A stretch of DNA of 64,000 nucleotides from contig JAVTVX010000005.1 of the NCBI GenBank assembly GCA_033439265.1, positions 2,056,001-2,120,000 of the forward strand. Reading direction: 5' to 3'. This document shows positions 18,142 to 61,519 of the stretch, piece after piece. The position numbers and the translations under genes are program-made. The stretch is from Dillenia suffruticosa. Taxonomy: Eukaryota; Streptophyta; Magnoliopsida; Dilleniales; Dilleniaceae. Position 1 is the stretch's first letter, and each line of letters starts with the position of its first letter. The notes beneath the pieces were generated by a model. It worked only from the letters and a program-made list of their open reading frames with translations. It had not been told where the DNA came from and did not search any database.

Positions 18142-18665
18142 ACATAGTTCCTTCTCTTAAAAAAAGAAAAAAAAAACTTATGTTAAAATTTATCTTTAGC
18201 ATATTAATTTTAAGTTTTGTTCCCTTAGAAGATTAAATTAAAATTTTTTTTTTCATTAGAATTAGACATATTAATTTTTCTAAGAAAACCAATTTATTTA
18301 AAATTTCTATTTCAAAATGCATTGATTTTAAATTTTCTATAAAAAAATAGATTTTATCTATTTAATATTAATTTTCTCTTTCTAAATCTTTTAAATTTAT
18401 TTTTTATTTTATCTCTTTAATTATTTTGATTTTAAATTTCTCCTCTCTAAAAAAATTCAATTTAGTTTTCCTCAACTTTAGAACTGATTAACTACTACTT
18501 TTTCTGATAGACAAATAATAGTGATTCGAAGTTCAGTCCTTTTCACACTATCGTGGTTCTGTAACTTATCATTTGATTAGTCAACGGACTGGTGTAGTTT
18601 ATGAAGGGGTCTGTGTTTGTGTATTCCACCTGTCACCACCAAAATCCCTTCTCTTCTACTAATTG
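17906..18665. other. AT-rich RLP upstream region with TA repeat
   Basis: Strongly AT-rich DNA with a TA dinucleotide repeat at about 18104-18138. A W-box-like core (TTGACT on the minus strand) lies in TTAGTCAACGG near 18576-18586, which would fit a defence gene, but such cores are common by chance. Confidence 0.5.
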
Positions 18666-21600
18666 ATGATGATGAGGTTCCTCAAGCTCTTCCCCTCTTT
18701 TATGTTCCTTTTTCTTGTGTATTTCTCCTCTCCTTTGGTCAATTCCTCTTCTTCCTTACGCCAGCTGTGTGTTTCCAATGAAAGCCGCGCTCTGCTCCAA
18801 TTCAGACAACTCTTTTTGTTTGATTTAAGTGCCTCACCACCAGGGTGTTATAGAAAATACTCAAAGATGGTTTCGTGGAAGGAAGGGACCGATTGCTGCC
18901 AATGGGATGGGATTGCCTGTGATGCATTCACCGGTCATGTAACTAGCCTCGATCTCAGCTGTTGCTTGCTTCATGGTACCATATATTCCCACAACTGCAG
19001 CCTCTGCCACCTTTCTCATCTTCAGAGCCTCAACCTCGCTTTCAATGACTTCAATTTGTCTCGAATTCCACCGTGTTTTGGCAGTTTCACCAATTTGATA
19101 CATCTCAACCTCTCTTATTCCAACTTTAGCGGCGAAATCCCTCCACAACTATCTCATTTGTCTAAACTGGTCTCCCTTGATCTTTCTTCTTTTTGGGATG
19201 ATACCCTGCACAGTGCAAGTAGCCTGGAAAGGCTAATTCATAATTTTACTCAACTGAGGCATCTTGACCTTGGCGGAGTATCTGTCAATTCTATTATACC
19301 CAAGTCATTAATGAATCTGTCTGCTCTCAACTATCTTAGTCTCAGGGGTTGTGGATTGAAAAGTAAATTTCCCACAGATATCTTCCACCTGCCAAATCTA
19401 CAATATCTTGATTTAACTGAAAATTATAAGCTTACTGGAAAACTACCTGAGTTCTTCAATGATAGTAGTCCTCTGAGGCAGATATTTCTTTCCTCCACCG
19501 ATTTCTATGGTGAAATACCTAATTCGATTGGCCAACTTAAATCTTTGGAATATTTGGATCTCGGGTTTGCAAATTTTTCAGGCTGTATTCCAGAATCGCT
19601 AGGCAACAATTCAAAATTAAGTGTTTTGTCCCTAGATCATAACCACTTTGGCGGTGAGCCTCCTTCGTCTCTTTGGAGGATCGAGACTCTTACTGGCATT
19701 GATCTTTCATCAAACACCTTTGATGGCAAAATTCCTGATAATTTTTCTACCCTTGGAGTATTATCTTCTCTTGAATTATTTGACAACAGTTTCACGGGTC
19801 AATTTCCCCATTCAATTGGAAATCTAGCACTACTTGAGTTTTTAGACCTTTCGGATAATAAATTATCAGGTCCCCTTCCATCTCAGGTATTTGGGCATCA
19901 CTGGAGGAAACTATTTCTGTATGGGAACCAGCTCACTGGTATCATTAATCAGCTTCATACCTCCAGTAAGTTGCAGTTGATCTCATTGAGTAACAATAAT
20001 CTTCGTGCCCAATCCCAACTTCCATCTTTAACCTCCAGACCCTTTCGTATCTTGATCTTTCGTCAAATAATTTAACTGGCCCAATCCCAACTTCCATCTT
20101 TAACCTCCAGACCCAACTTCCATCTTTAACCTCCAGACCCTTTCGTATCTTGATCTTTCGTCAAATAATTTAAGTGGCCCAATCCCAACTTCCATCCTCC
20201 AGACCCTTCGTATCTTGATCTTTCGTCAAATAATTTAAGTGGAATCATTATGCTGGATAGCTTCTCTAAACTTCGATCTCTGAATTCCCTTGATCTTTCA
20301 CACAACTCTATAACAGGCTTTCAGCTATTTCCTACCTATAATATATGGTCTTCTCTTCAATTTCTGGACCTAAACTCAAACAAGTTACAAGGCTCACTTG
20401 GTTCCCTCCCAATCCCATCAGAGAAAATAATTTACTACTCAGTTGCGAACAACCAGCTCACTGGAGAGATTTCCACATGTTTTTGCAACAAGAGCAATCT
20501 TGAATTCCTTGATCTGTCAAACAATAACTTGAAGGGCGCTATTCCGCCATGCCTCAGCAATTCCAGCAGCTTGTCAGTGTTAAACCTTCAACACAATAGC
20601 CTTGATGGGGCCATCCCAAGAATGTGTTCACATGGAAATGGAATAAAGCTGGAGACACTTGACTTAAGTTACAATCAGTTGCAAGGGCAGTTACCTCGGT
20701 CCTTGGTTCACTGCAAATTACTTCAACTTCTGAATCTTGGAAACAACATGCTTGTTGACACTTTTCCTGCCTGGTTGGCAACTCTTCCTAAATTACAAGT
20801 GCTTCTCCTTCAACATAACAGGCTCCATGGGTCAATAGGGAATCCCCGCAGTGAGGTTGCCTTTGCTAAATTAAACATCATTGATGTCTCTGACAACAAC
20901 TTCACAGGTACACTGCCATCAGATTACTTCAAAAGCTGGCGTTCAATGACGGCTAATGACAAAAATAGGTCCAACTGGAAATTCTTGACCATTTCCTCCA
21001 ATTTCTACTATTCCTATACTGTCACTCTCATAAACAAAGGGCTGGAAATGGAGCTGGTGAAGATTCTCAACACTTTTAAGGTGGTCGACTTATCAAACAA
21101 CAATTTTCAAGGGGAGATCCCAAAATCCGTTGGACAACTCAAGGCTCTTTGTGCCCTCAATTTCTCCAACAATCACCTCACCGGTAGCATTCCCACAGAA
21201 TTGGCAAAACTGAAAGATCTCGAATCTTTGGATCTGGCGAGAAACAACTTGTCAGGAATTATTCCTCCTGAGTTAGCAAGCTTGACATTCCTTGAGGTTT
21301 TAGACGTCTCGCACAACCATCTTCAGGGTCCGATTCCACGAAGTCGACAATTGGACACATTTTCAAACACTTCTTATCTGGGGAACCCTGGATTATGTGG
21401 ATTTCCATTATCAAAACCATGTGGCGAAACACAGGTGACACCACAACCGTCCTCAGAATTGGATCAAACCCAAAACTCAGAATCCATAATTTATGACTTT
21501 GATTGGAAAGTTGTAACAATAGGGTATGGATGTGGAATGGTGGTTGGTGTGATAATGGGAAATTACATTTACAACCGGAAGCAAGAGGCGATTGTGAGAT

Positions 21601-21668
21601 TTTTCCGCGTTCGGTTGGGCAGGCAGAGTAAGAGATTGAGCAAGAGCAGAGAAGGAAATAAGTGTTAG
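18666..21668 (+). pseudogene. Cf-type leucine-rich repeat receptor-like protein, frame broken
   Basis: Receptor-like proteins sit in the plasma membrane and sense extracellular ligands through LRRs, signalling with partner kinases such as SOBIR1. One exon, typical of the class. The first open part (18666-20075) has a signal peptide (FLKLFPSFMFLFLVYFSSPL), an N-terminal cap ending SWKEGTDCCQWDGIACD, and about a dozen 24-residue LRRs (LxxLDLSxNxxxGxIP). The second (20250-21668) has more LRRs, an island region near 20930-21050 (SWRSMTANDKNRSN), the last LRRs, the segment NPGLCGFPLSKPCG, an acidic stretch, a membrane span (VVTIGYGCGMVVGVIMGNYIY) and a short basic tail without a kinase. Between them, 20006-20240, tandem copies of one LRR unit carry three one-base-type shifts that sum to zero, leaving stops at 20073 and later. 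The start has three ATGs in a row at 18666. Real pseudogene or assembly error in repeats cannot be separated here. Confidence 0.85.
20010..20245 (+). repeat. Tandem LRR-unit duplication with indels
   Basis: A unit of about 72 bp containing CCAATCCCAACTTCCATC and TATCTTGATCTTTCGTCAAA is repeated three times, plus an extra partial copy (about 26 bp) near 20115-20140. The last copy lacks a 6-bp TTTAAC and one T. The frame steps through all three phases across the block and returns to the original, consistent with slippage or unequal crossing-over among LRR repeats. Confidence 0.85.
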
Positions 21669-50989: not shown

Positions 50990-51210
50990 GAAAGAAAGAG
51001 AGAGAGAGAGAGAAAGCCGCTTGCAAAACACACTTGAGAAAACACTTTCCAGAGACAAAAAAGAACAAAAACCACTTTTGACACACACACTGGGAAAGGG
51101 TAACTTTGAGAGAAAGAGAGCCTTTTGCAAAACACACGTGAACAAACACTTTCTAGAGATAAAGAAGAATAAAAACCGAAATTGACACACATACTGGGAA
51201 TGGGTACACA
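50990..51210. repeat. 104-bp tandem duplication downstream of FPF1-like gene
   Basis: TTGCAAAACACAC begins two copies 104 bp apart (51021 and 51125). Both continue AAACACTTTC-AGAGA, AAGAA, AAAAACC, TTGACACACA-ACTGGGAA-GGGTA with scattered differences, and each is preceded by GA-rich DNA. They lie just past the stop codon and so probably fall in the FPF1-like 3' UTR. Confidence 0.85.
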
Positions 51211-51264: not shown

Positions 51265-51600
51265 TTAGGAGTCTCGTACGCGGAAGATGTTGGGATTCTT
51301 AATGACAATATCATACATCTGCACTGAATTAAACTTGGCAAAGTCCTTAGGAAGAGAAATTAAATCAATGGAGGAGTGCTTGTGAAATTCGAGTCGGTCA
51401 GAGGCACCCCCATAGTACCTCTCCCAACCCAAACTCGTTAGAATTCGCTCCAATGAGCTGTACGAGGATACCACCTCACCTGTTGGCAAGTGTACCAATG
51501 CCTTTCTCTGGCCTGTGCTAGACTGTCGCCCTTCTGCTGGGTCTGCTGGATTGTCAACCAAACGAATTACACCATCCTTAAATACCCAGACTCCGGACAT
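51265..51600 (-). CDS. FPF1-like protein (FLOWERING PROMOTING FACTOR 1)
   Basis: FPF1 proteins are small plant regulators; in Arabidopsis overexpression speeds flowering and gibberellin-type growth responses. The biochemical role is not settled. Single exon, 111 residues, matching the family's usual length of about 110. It begins [20 protein letters not shown] and carries the family core [47 protein letters not shown] and YDIVIKNPN, ending FRVRDS. An ATG 27 bases upstream in frame (51627) would add a Lys-rich MFKKLKKNK; the internal ATG at 51600 matches the conserved family start. A TATA box lies about 100 bp upstream. The gene looks intact. Confidence 0.96.
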
Positions 51601-51696
51601 TTTGTTTTTTTTTAATTTTTTGAACAAGATTTTCTCACACTCGTATGGAAGAGGGAGATGTGATTTTTGTTTGAGAGATTGGGGGAGTGAACTGGG

Positions 51697-56971: not shown

Positions 56972-57173
56972 ATAGACAACACTTGTTGGCATAGGTGGGA
57001 GGGGCACCTTCGTCCCTTAACCAGGTCGGAAGTTCAACTCCCTCTGAGTACGAAAAAAATAATATTGGGAGATCTGTCCCCCAAAATGGGCCCTGCTGCT
57101 ATCTATTCAGATTAATCGGAGCGAAATTTTGGATACTGGGTGATGGCCAAGCTAAGATACCAAAAATAGACAA
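56972..57173 (+). mobile_element. About 186-bp SINE related to the 44.3-kb copy
   Basis: The body, about 56980-57165, has an A-box-like GGCATAGGTGGGAGGGG, a B-box-like GTCGGAAGTTCAACTCCC, then CCCCCAAAATGGGCC and AGATTAATCGGAGCGAAATT, the same order as in the element at 44316-44509. A possible 8-bp target duplication ATAGACAA flanks it (56972-56979, 57166-57173). There is no clear poly-A tail. Confidence 0.65.
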
Positions 57174-57584: not shown

Positions 57585-57645
57585 TGCTTTCTATTTCTCT
57601 TAATCTTAGCCAAAAGGCCAAGAAAGATATGCTTTCTATTTCTCT
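57585..57645 (-). mobile_element. 3'-truncated U2 snRNA retrocopy with 16-bp target duplication
   Basis: Perfect direct repeats TGCTTTCTATTTCTCT (57585-57600 and 57630-57645) bracket exactly 29 bp, 57601-57629. On the minus strand the insert contains CTTGGCCTTTTGGCTAAGAT and aligns from position 2 with the conserved 5' end of U2 snRNA (26 of 29 by my recollection of plant U2; all three differences are C to T). The first U2 base, A, is supplied by the flanking repeat. It stops about 30 nt into U2 and has no poly-A. Confidence 0.75.
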
Positions 57646-59752: not shown

Positions 59753-61519
59753 TCAGCATCCAAGATTTCTCATTATGCTGCTAAGCCAATAAATTACCTC
59801 TTCAGGTTTGGCAAATGACCCGGGCAAATTAATGGCATGATATTCCAACCCTTTCCACTGAGCAATCAATTGAAAATGTGGGCGTCTGAATTGGCTACTA
59901 ATTATCTCAAGAATTACAGTTTTTGGTGTTGCTGATACTATATGAGTGAAACCTGCCCCATGAGCTCCAATAATGACGGAAGCATCCTGAATAGCTTGGA
60001 CTTGCTCTTTCAATGGCATGTGTCCACACAGTCCATTGACAAGGATTATTTTACATTCCAAATGATTAGAGACCCAATCTTTTATTGAATTAAACACTTC
60101 CTGCTCATTGCTAAGCCTTGATTTTTTGCCGTGATGTCATGGATGAGCTAGATAGTCTTCCCATCTAACAAATAGGACATTATGACCGGAAACTGGCTTT
60201 GCAAACCGGTGCCTATCAACTGGAAACCCAAAGGCTGCTCTAATCATTTCTCCGAACTCAGATAGCCGTGCAGTTTTGTGATCATCTGGGGTTTGCCAAA
60301 GATCATGTGCATATGCTCCTTCACAGTTTGTCTTCAGACAACCCCTTGAATAAAGCAGTCTCATATCCCAAGGGTGACAGAATGGCATGACATAGACAAA
60401 CAGGCTCACTAAAGTTTTTTGCATACGTAACACTTGGGAATAGAAATTTCCATGTTTCTTCCAATTGTCTGAAAAAGTTGTAGAAATACTTAATTATGTC
60501 AGGATTGTGCATGCACCATAATATGATCTCCATTTACAAACAGGCAAAATAGCATTGGAAATGTAAATAACTTGACAAGCAAAAATTGGACTGAGATTTT
60601 GCAATTAAACACCGAAAAGACTGAAGCAAGCAAAGGACAAGACAATAAATTCTAAGTACATTAGGGAGGGCAACATACACAATCACAGATTCCTACAGTC
60701 TACAGCAAGCCCAGAACCCGGAACTCACAAGCAGCTTGGCAGATTCCAATTCCAATAGCGCAGTATAGATGGCATTGGTGGGAGGAAAAACAATGTTCAT
60801 ACATCCAATGAAGTTCTTCACTACGTGTGGTGGCATCCAGCTGCCTGGCTCTCAAAGCGATATACATAAACAACCTATTGGATGCTGTCACTTTGAAAGT
60901 AGATTACAAGGGTTAAGCATGATATTTAGAATAATAAGCGCAAGTCGGTCCAGATGCATCTCTTTAGGATGTTTTATGGTGACATGTTTGGGTAGAAGGA
61001 AAGAAACAAGAAGTGAATAAGTTCTTTACTGGCTCTTCCGTAAAAACATTTCTACTAGATCCAGCCCCACGACAGAAAGGGAAAATGCTACATAAAAATA
61101 AAGAAAATGGTATAAAATATTTGACATTCTACATTTAGCAGATTGGAGCACTCAGAACCATATCAAGCCACTGAGTCATGACAAACTTCTGTTGTTTCCT
61201 ATATACACTTTCACTCTAAACAGTGCTATCCAAATGAAAACACTTCAGGATAGTTTTATATTTGCAGACAAAATTGCACGAAGCACCATGGAGTTAATAA
61301 GAAAGCAACATCTCACAAAAGTACGCAACCAACCAATACTAAATACACTTACCGTACAATAACCATCAACAAAAACCACATGTGGTCGATTAGGCAAGCC
61401 CGTAACCCTTGAACTCACATAAGCACTGTAACAATCTGTGACTGTGTGAAAGACATTCGCATACTCAAAGCGCGTGACCAAAAGTGTTGGCTCCTCAATC
61501 CACAGCATTTAGGGTTAAA
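59753..61519 (-). pseudogene. XYLT: Beta-1,2-xylosyltransferase (GT61) remnant
   Basis: XYLT is the Golgi enzyme adding beta-1,2-xylose to the N-glycan core. Two exon-like regions remain: 61519-61353 (WIEEPTLLVTRFEYANVFHT, VSSRVTGLPNRPHVVFVDG, donor ACG/GTAAGT) and 60468-59753 (LSPLGYETALFKGLSED, SEFGEMIRAAFGFPVDRHR, QAIQDASVIIGAHGAGFTHI, HFQLIAQWKGLEYHA, ending NLGC and TGA). Lesions: one base seems missing just before WIEEP near 61502, placing stops in frame; the join to the second exon is out of frame unless two bases are lost; another frameshift lies near 60320 (SEDK / CEGAYAHDLW); and a TGA at 60139-60137 falls after EDYLAHP where Arg is expected. The normally conserved VTDWYSAY reads VTDCYSAY. 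The N-terminal half, with the membrane anchor, is not found up to 64000; it may lie outside or be lost. Family identity is strong, and a pseudogene is the best reading. Confidence 0.88.

Follow-up and report, generated by a model that had tools for sequence, protein, structure and literature searches.

Mammalian tailless retropseudogenes derived from U2, U6 and further RNAs are well documented, and the class was reportedly treated by Schmitz in 2004. A screen which also covered plants (Noll et al. 2015, PMC5322556) obtained only eight U2-derived tailless copies from maize and applied a minimum length of 30 nt. The elements of that report resemble those described below: they are complete at the 5′ end, truncated at the 3′ end and devoid of an A-tail, they carry a target duplication and an overlap at the 3′ junction, and U2 is a source. 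They differ in that U2 matches number in the hundreds in the single dicot analysed here, with ends at nt 30-37 in the 88 copies that were read, and in that U6 copies of 20-24 nt in this dicot are shorter than the 30-nt minimum. For mammalian snRNAs, PMC4476161 describes a target-primed start inside the RNA, with L1 initiating within the snRNA; the 3′-truncated pseudogenes covered there share with ours the truncation within short segments, homology at the junction, duplications, and U2 and U6 as sources. L1-like retrocopies in dicots (PMC4838847) are also L1-like insertions with duplications but have mRNA templates and poly-A tails, whereas the U2 copies reported here are tailless. U2 is also involved in the Utopia LINEs, but in these (PMC4640811) the U2 genes are the target while here U2 RNA is the template. 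Other plant reports of tailless U2 copies were not found beyond PMC5322556 in our search, most of the subscription literature lying outside it. The maize copies mean that a plant precedent exists in print; an earlier note on this DNA had known of no plant case this short. The kind of copy found here is thus known; what is new is the number of copies, their shortness, and their end behind the 5′-terminal stem-loop in a dicot.

The stretch analysed, referred to as the window, comprises 64,000 nucleotides from Dillenia suffruticosa (G000:C5:2056001-2120000, in a 596-Mb genome of 37 contigs). Repeat comparison identified a perfect 16-bp direct repeat (16/16), TGCTTTCTATTTCTCT, on the plus strand at 57585-57600 and 57630-57645, with a spacing of 29 bases. 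These are the target site duplications on the 3′ side and the 5′ side, respectively, in the U2 sense. Upon pattern matching, nt 1-30 of U2 snRNA had a single match in the window, at 57601-57630 on the minus strand, with three mismatches (27/30 bases), while none was found in 100 dinucleotide shuffles of the window. U2 and the insert differ by the substitutions C4>T, C11>T, C29>T. Thus, the description in the earlier note of 29 bp of the U2 5′ end between perfect 16-bp repeats, with all three differences being C to T, is borne out. Its extent requires a small correction: T57630, the first base of the right repeat, doubles as the complement of U2 A1, and the insert, with this base included, represents nt 1-30. 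The U2 match extends to nt 32, because the AG (in the U2 sense, minus strand) at 57599-57600 counts both as repeat and as U2 nt 31-32. This AG is likely the priming overlap.

The insert is complete at its 5′ end, beginning at U2 nt 1, which it has in common with the repeat. Its 3′ end is at nt 30-32 of about 190, while tailless retropseudogenes are defined by a truncation of at least 10 nt from the RNA end. The 16-bp duplication lies within the range of 8-35 nt for target duplications of this class. As had been stated, there is no oligo(A) tail, the duplication directly adjoining the U2 sequence, and target and U2 overlap by 2 bases (AG) at the 3′ junction. The characteristics of a SINE, an internal pol III promoter and an A-rich or LINE-like 3′ tail, are absent from this tailless 30-nt insert. 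In a search of 401 bases, the Rfam U2 model (RF00004) recognizes the insert with 26.1 bits (E 0.002). This is below the gathering score of 46, as the insert covers only some 30 of the 192 positions; a scan of the entire window at gathering scores gave no Rfam hit. The window insert is a 3′-truncated, tailless U2 retropseudogene with a target duplication. Its cut site, GT/AGAGAAAT, was compared with the L1-type site TT/WAAAAWW. While no further exact 16-mer of the TGCTTTCTATTTCTCT type is present in the window beyond the pair, eight other sites match with up to three mismatches (expected mean 1.97 in all), and therefore the target is a pyrimidine-rich sequence of a common type.

Several other features were annotated in the window. 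A gene for a receptor-like protein (18663-21668) consists of two open frames separated by a 98-bp tandem duplication (20014-20196, 98% alike). A flowering-promoting-factor-1-like gene (51265-51627, minus strand) adjoins a 104-bp imperfect direct repeat (51004-51206). The protein matches of these two genes are from plants, those with a name being eudicot among the ones inspected, with 35-51% identity for the former gene and 56-77% for the latter among the 120 listed for each. The nearest gene found to the right of the insertion is that of a glycosyltransferase 61 (PF04577), represented by an exon-like frame at 59753-60136 on the minus strand. At 57001-57060, visual inspection suggested a box B resembling that of a tRNA with an A-run after it, which may be the end of a SINE; ARAGORN reported no tRNA gene there and none across the window.

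An empty site was searched for by joining both window flanks by a single repeat and comparing this query with the genome. The window itself was recovered in two pieces (100%), and the sole continuous match beyond it is at G000:C2:3750057-3750257 (86% alike). There, GTATTC leads into TTTGCTGCCTGTTTCTTTACTC with no U2 sequence in between, and the repeated stretch occurs in one copy (12/16 bases alike). By its sequence, this C2 paralog is the pre-insertion site with one repeat, and it bears out the view that the window carries a 3′-truncated U2 retrocopy with a target duplication. The insertion most likely reached C5 later than the duplication that connects C5 and C2. Tandem slippage had also been considered as the origin of the repeats and was rejected on account of the empty site. 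At a second locus, a U2 copy is found within a tandem array of the host sequence with at least 10 units (G000:C5:4690919-4796971, L054-L060). Ten units matched the joined flanks of this copy, seven over 215-217 bases and three over 167 bases (92% alike), the latter being without the extra 48-50 bases. As judged by these match spans, seven units carry the insert and three apparently do not, and the array represents a natural before/after series.

The Rfam U2 profile search of the genome revealed at least 46 places above the cut-off, a lower bound since 46 of 40961 candidates were scored. Three loci (L002-L004) have exact U2 5′ ends, ATACCTTTCTCGGCCTTTTGGCTAAGATCAAGTGTAG, while L005-L009 are 79-84% alike when compared with L002. 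The U2 reference sequence was confirmed in the host U2 genes and in a plant-type U2 gene from a MAG contig. Comparison with the host's U2 genes had been proposed in the earlier note; these genes confirm the source of the insert through the 5′ ends of L002-L004. The gene on the MAG contig (L001:1762-1838) has the same 5′ end and promoter elements, and the contig is filed as Trichormus, a cyanobacterium; this is probably a contamination. In viral contigs, the U2 5′ pattern was not found. A cluster of divergent U2-like genes with drifted nt 1-30 is located at G000:C19:7156314-7184853 (L008-L011, L014, L017, L018, L023). It has retained upstream what we take to be promoter-like sequence, TCCCACATC and a TATA-like stretch.

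The window copy is not isolated and belongs to a large class. With up to three mismatches, U2 nt 1-30 has 414 matches in the whole genome (199 plus 215), while the reversed sequence, used as a control, has none. This compares to only 20 matches for U2 nt 39-68. Exact matches number 122 for nt 1-20 versus 64 for nt 1-30. We read 100 of the 414 places (64 exact, 36 with one mismatch), a sample which is the least mutated quarter and non-random because the listing was ordered by mismatch. Together with the window this gave 101 rows, from which three U2 genes and 10 rows repeating an already counted host locus were subtracted, leaving 88 independent copies. In each of these copies, the exact match to U2 stops at nt 30-37, the 30-base pattern being blind to shorter ends; the most frequent end points are nt 32 (29 copies), nt 33 (29 copies) and nt 34 (10 copies). 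One copy, L091, shows further U2 similarity downstream and thus represents an internal deletion, not a plain truncation. The flanks of the 88 copies are mutually different, while U2 always starts at nt 1 and ends in one stretch. An extra, cap-derived G was sought at the 5′ junction of 16 copies, the counts being G 14, T 14, C 9 and A 7.

Duplications were called when an abutting copy scored at least 10, with random positions in the same loci serving as the null. Such a duplication is found in 61 of the 88 copies but in only 29 of 1760 null positions (Fisher p 5e-70). More than half of these (38 of 61) are perfect and the commonest length is 16. A scan for other U2 5′-end fragments with flanking duplications had been suggested in the earlier note. 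For 27 of the 88 copies the duplication is below the threshold; several of these look like decayed repeats and were left out of the count. Copies lacking a near duplication were also examined as LINE chimeras, with no result. L112 (G000:C1:2055205-2055834) has U2 nt 1-32 followed by 127 other bases, with an 11-bp repeat 159 bases away, and is possibly a U2 chimera or due to chance.

The 30 bases of the window occur, with up to two mismatches, at 21 places including itself. Among the other 20, of which three were already within the first set, nine have a duplication score of at least 10 and some are part of longer U2 copies. The change C11>T, at a CpG, is present in 17 of the 21 places, a bias which is built into the query. 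Among 35 copies with a single mismatch, C>T and G>A (in the U2 sense) occur 7 times each, so the three C>T changes of the window are not explained by a general bias. They appear to be later mutations.

Our 5′-end screens covered U2, U1, U4 and U6. There are 80 matches for U6 nt 1-30, 50 for U1 nt 1-32 and 31 for U4 nt 1-30, the low U1 and U4 figures being place counts only. Of the U1 matches, 28 are in one tandem array of U1 genes (G000:C11:3425615-3471991), mostly at a spacing of about 1.56 kb. From the U6 nt 1-30 matches, 20 places with one to three mismatches were picked by hand; half of them have a duplication score of at least 10, and among the remainder at least four are U6 copies of greater length. 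U6 nt 1-20 occurs exactly at 93 places. The first 20 of these outside the nt 1-30 list, which were thus selected as short, end at nt 20-24 (nt 21 in 12/20), and 16 of the 20 have a duplication score of at least 10, compared to 41 of 1000 null positions. The duplication begins at U6 nt 20 (AT) in 12 of the 20, despite an adjoining A-run. Therefore, the class takes in inserts of 20 to 24 bases, still shorter than the window copy.

For 54 scorable U2 copies, the start of the duplication overlaps the end of the U2 match by 2.19 nt on average, compared with 0.18-0.67 in 17 sets with shifted flanks. The leading bases of the duplications correspond to U2 nt 31-34 more frequently than expected by chance. 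When flanks are shuffled among copies, the overlap still averages 0.85, with a maximum of 1.5; it is therefore partly a shared preference for AG/GT sites and partly specific to the junction. The overlap above chance suggests that the cut target DNA served as primer, which leads to the picture of a target-primed start inside the RNA that is drawn in PMC4476161 and PMC5322556. Mammalian cut sites resemble TTTT/A, according to the former source, whereas the cut motif is weak here and shows no clear TT/AAAA: among the 61 duplicated copies, a T precedes the cut in 25 and a purine follows it in 50. The genome contains at least 150 LINE-type zf-RVT domains (scored among 2940 candidates), and some of the frames without stops exceed 1000 aa, the longest having 1393 aa. 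The observed duplication lengths match those of LINEs. Stop-free LINE-type frames thus exist for the LINE machinery suggested in the earlier note, but no insertion was tied to one of them; L1-type machinery is our candidate for the agent.

We propose the following series of events. A LINE-type (probably L1-clade) endonuclease would cut the target, and the exposed DNA 3′ end would pair over about 2 bases with U2 RNA at the AGUG (nt 31-34) that directly follows stem I. From there, reverse transcription would proceed through stem I to the U2 5′ end, and repair of the staggered cut would generate the 16-bp duplication. We are confident that the window carries a tailless U2 retropseudogene which arose by LINE-type target-primed reverse transcription within U2. 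The direct observations are the U2 copy with its duplication and empty site, recurrence throughout the genome, a narrow end point, and the overlap between duplication and U2, while LINE agency and the use of intact U2, not a fragment of it, for priming are what we infer. In the Rfam consensus of U2, the putative priming stretch is just behind stem I; the U6 end is behind the 5′ hairpin of U6. The U2 truncation zone is unpaired in the U2 consensus and in a fold of nt 1-32 but paired in a fold of nt 1-69; in the latter, nt 30-36 pair with nt 2-7, and the priming stretch is therefore not necessarily accessible. In the U6 fold, nt 16-21 pair with nt 25-30, which places the U6 end in a predicted second hairpin. 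That the priming stretches of U2 and U6 would be unpaired in the cell is an assumption of the model.

The same insertion route may have used a different template, namely a discrete decay piece from the U2 5′ end (about nt 1-32), and likewise U6 nt 1-21, which would be capped, protected by its hairpin and joined to the cut target by its own 3′ end. In 58 of the 88 copies, exact identity with U2 runs out at nt 32 or nt 33, and the prevailing U6 end at nt 21 and duplication start at nt 20 beside the A-run (12 of 20 for each, in a sample selected as short) are also in line with such pieces. However, a fixed distance from the hairpin would yield equally narrow ends, and such pieces were sought in human libraries with no success (PMC5322556). 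Both the narrowness of the ends and the choice of U6 nt 20-21 over the A-run speak for either pieces or a fixed hairpin distance. We consider a decay piece as template to be a serious possibility, if somewhat short of an even chance. It is conceivable, though rather doubtful, that the LINE reverse transcriptase of this lineage prefers the 5′-terminal stem-loops of snRNAs (stem I of U2, the 5′ hairpin of U6), either because it docks to the hairpin and initiates a set distance behind it or because stable RNA remnants ending in a hairpin serve as templates.

Self-primed reverse transcription, the cDNA being integrated afterwards, is the classical proposal for 3′-truncated snRNA pseudogenes and was brought up in the earlier note. 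It is very unlikely here, as overlaps between target and U2 at the junction are expected from target priming instead, and the overlap values argue for the latter. An origin at the DNA level, either as filler DNA at a repaired break or through a repeat family that carries the U2 5′ end, would be in line with the 10 of 98 non-gene rows that have been duplicated along with their host locus. But starts at nt 1 combined with duplications of 10-21 bp are unexpected for filler DNA, and 88 copies with differing flanks, separate duplications, a uniform start and one end stretch make any such origin similarly improbable; a repeat family carrying U2 was rejected because of these flanks. That a chance direct repeat surrounds a chance U2-like stretch was considered because the window contains 23 exact repeat pairs of at least 14 bp at comparable spacing, including the pair at 57585-57645. 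Given the U2 match that the shuffles failed to reproduce, the empty site and the recurrence throughout the genome, we attach next to no weight to this explanation.

In summary, target-primed reverse transcription within U2, probably by a LINE-type element, appears to have left hundreds of U2 copies in a dicot, compared to the eight from maize that are the sole printed plant count we found. These copies are usable as presence/absence markers. With this many clean insertions, one can read how plant LINEs choose a template, prime and cut their targets, as no poly-A tail blurs the junction. Copies this short can change promoters or untranslated regions unnoticed. If the preference for stem-loops should be true, there would be a standing class of 20-37-nt retroposons with hundreds of copies, which repeat screens with a 30-nt floor would largely miss.
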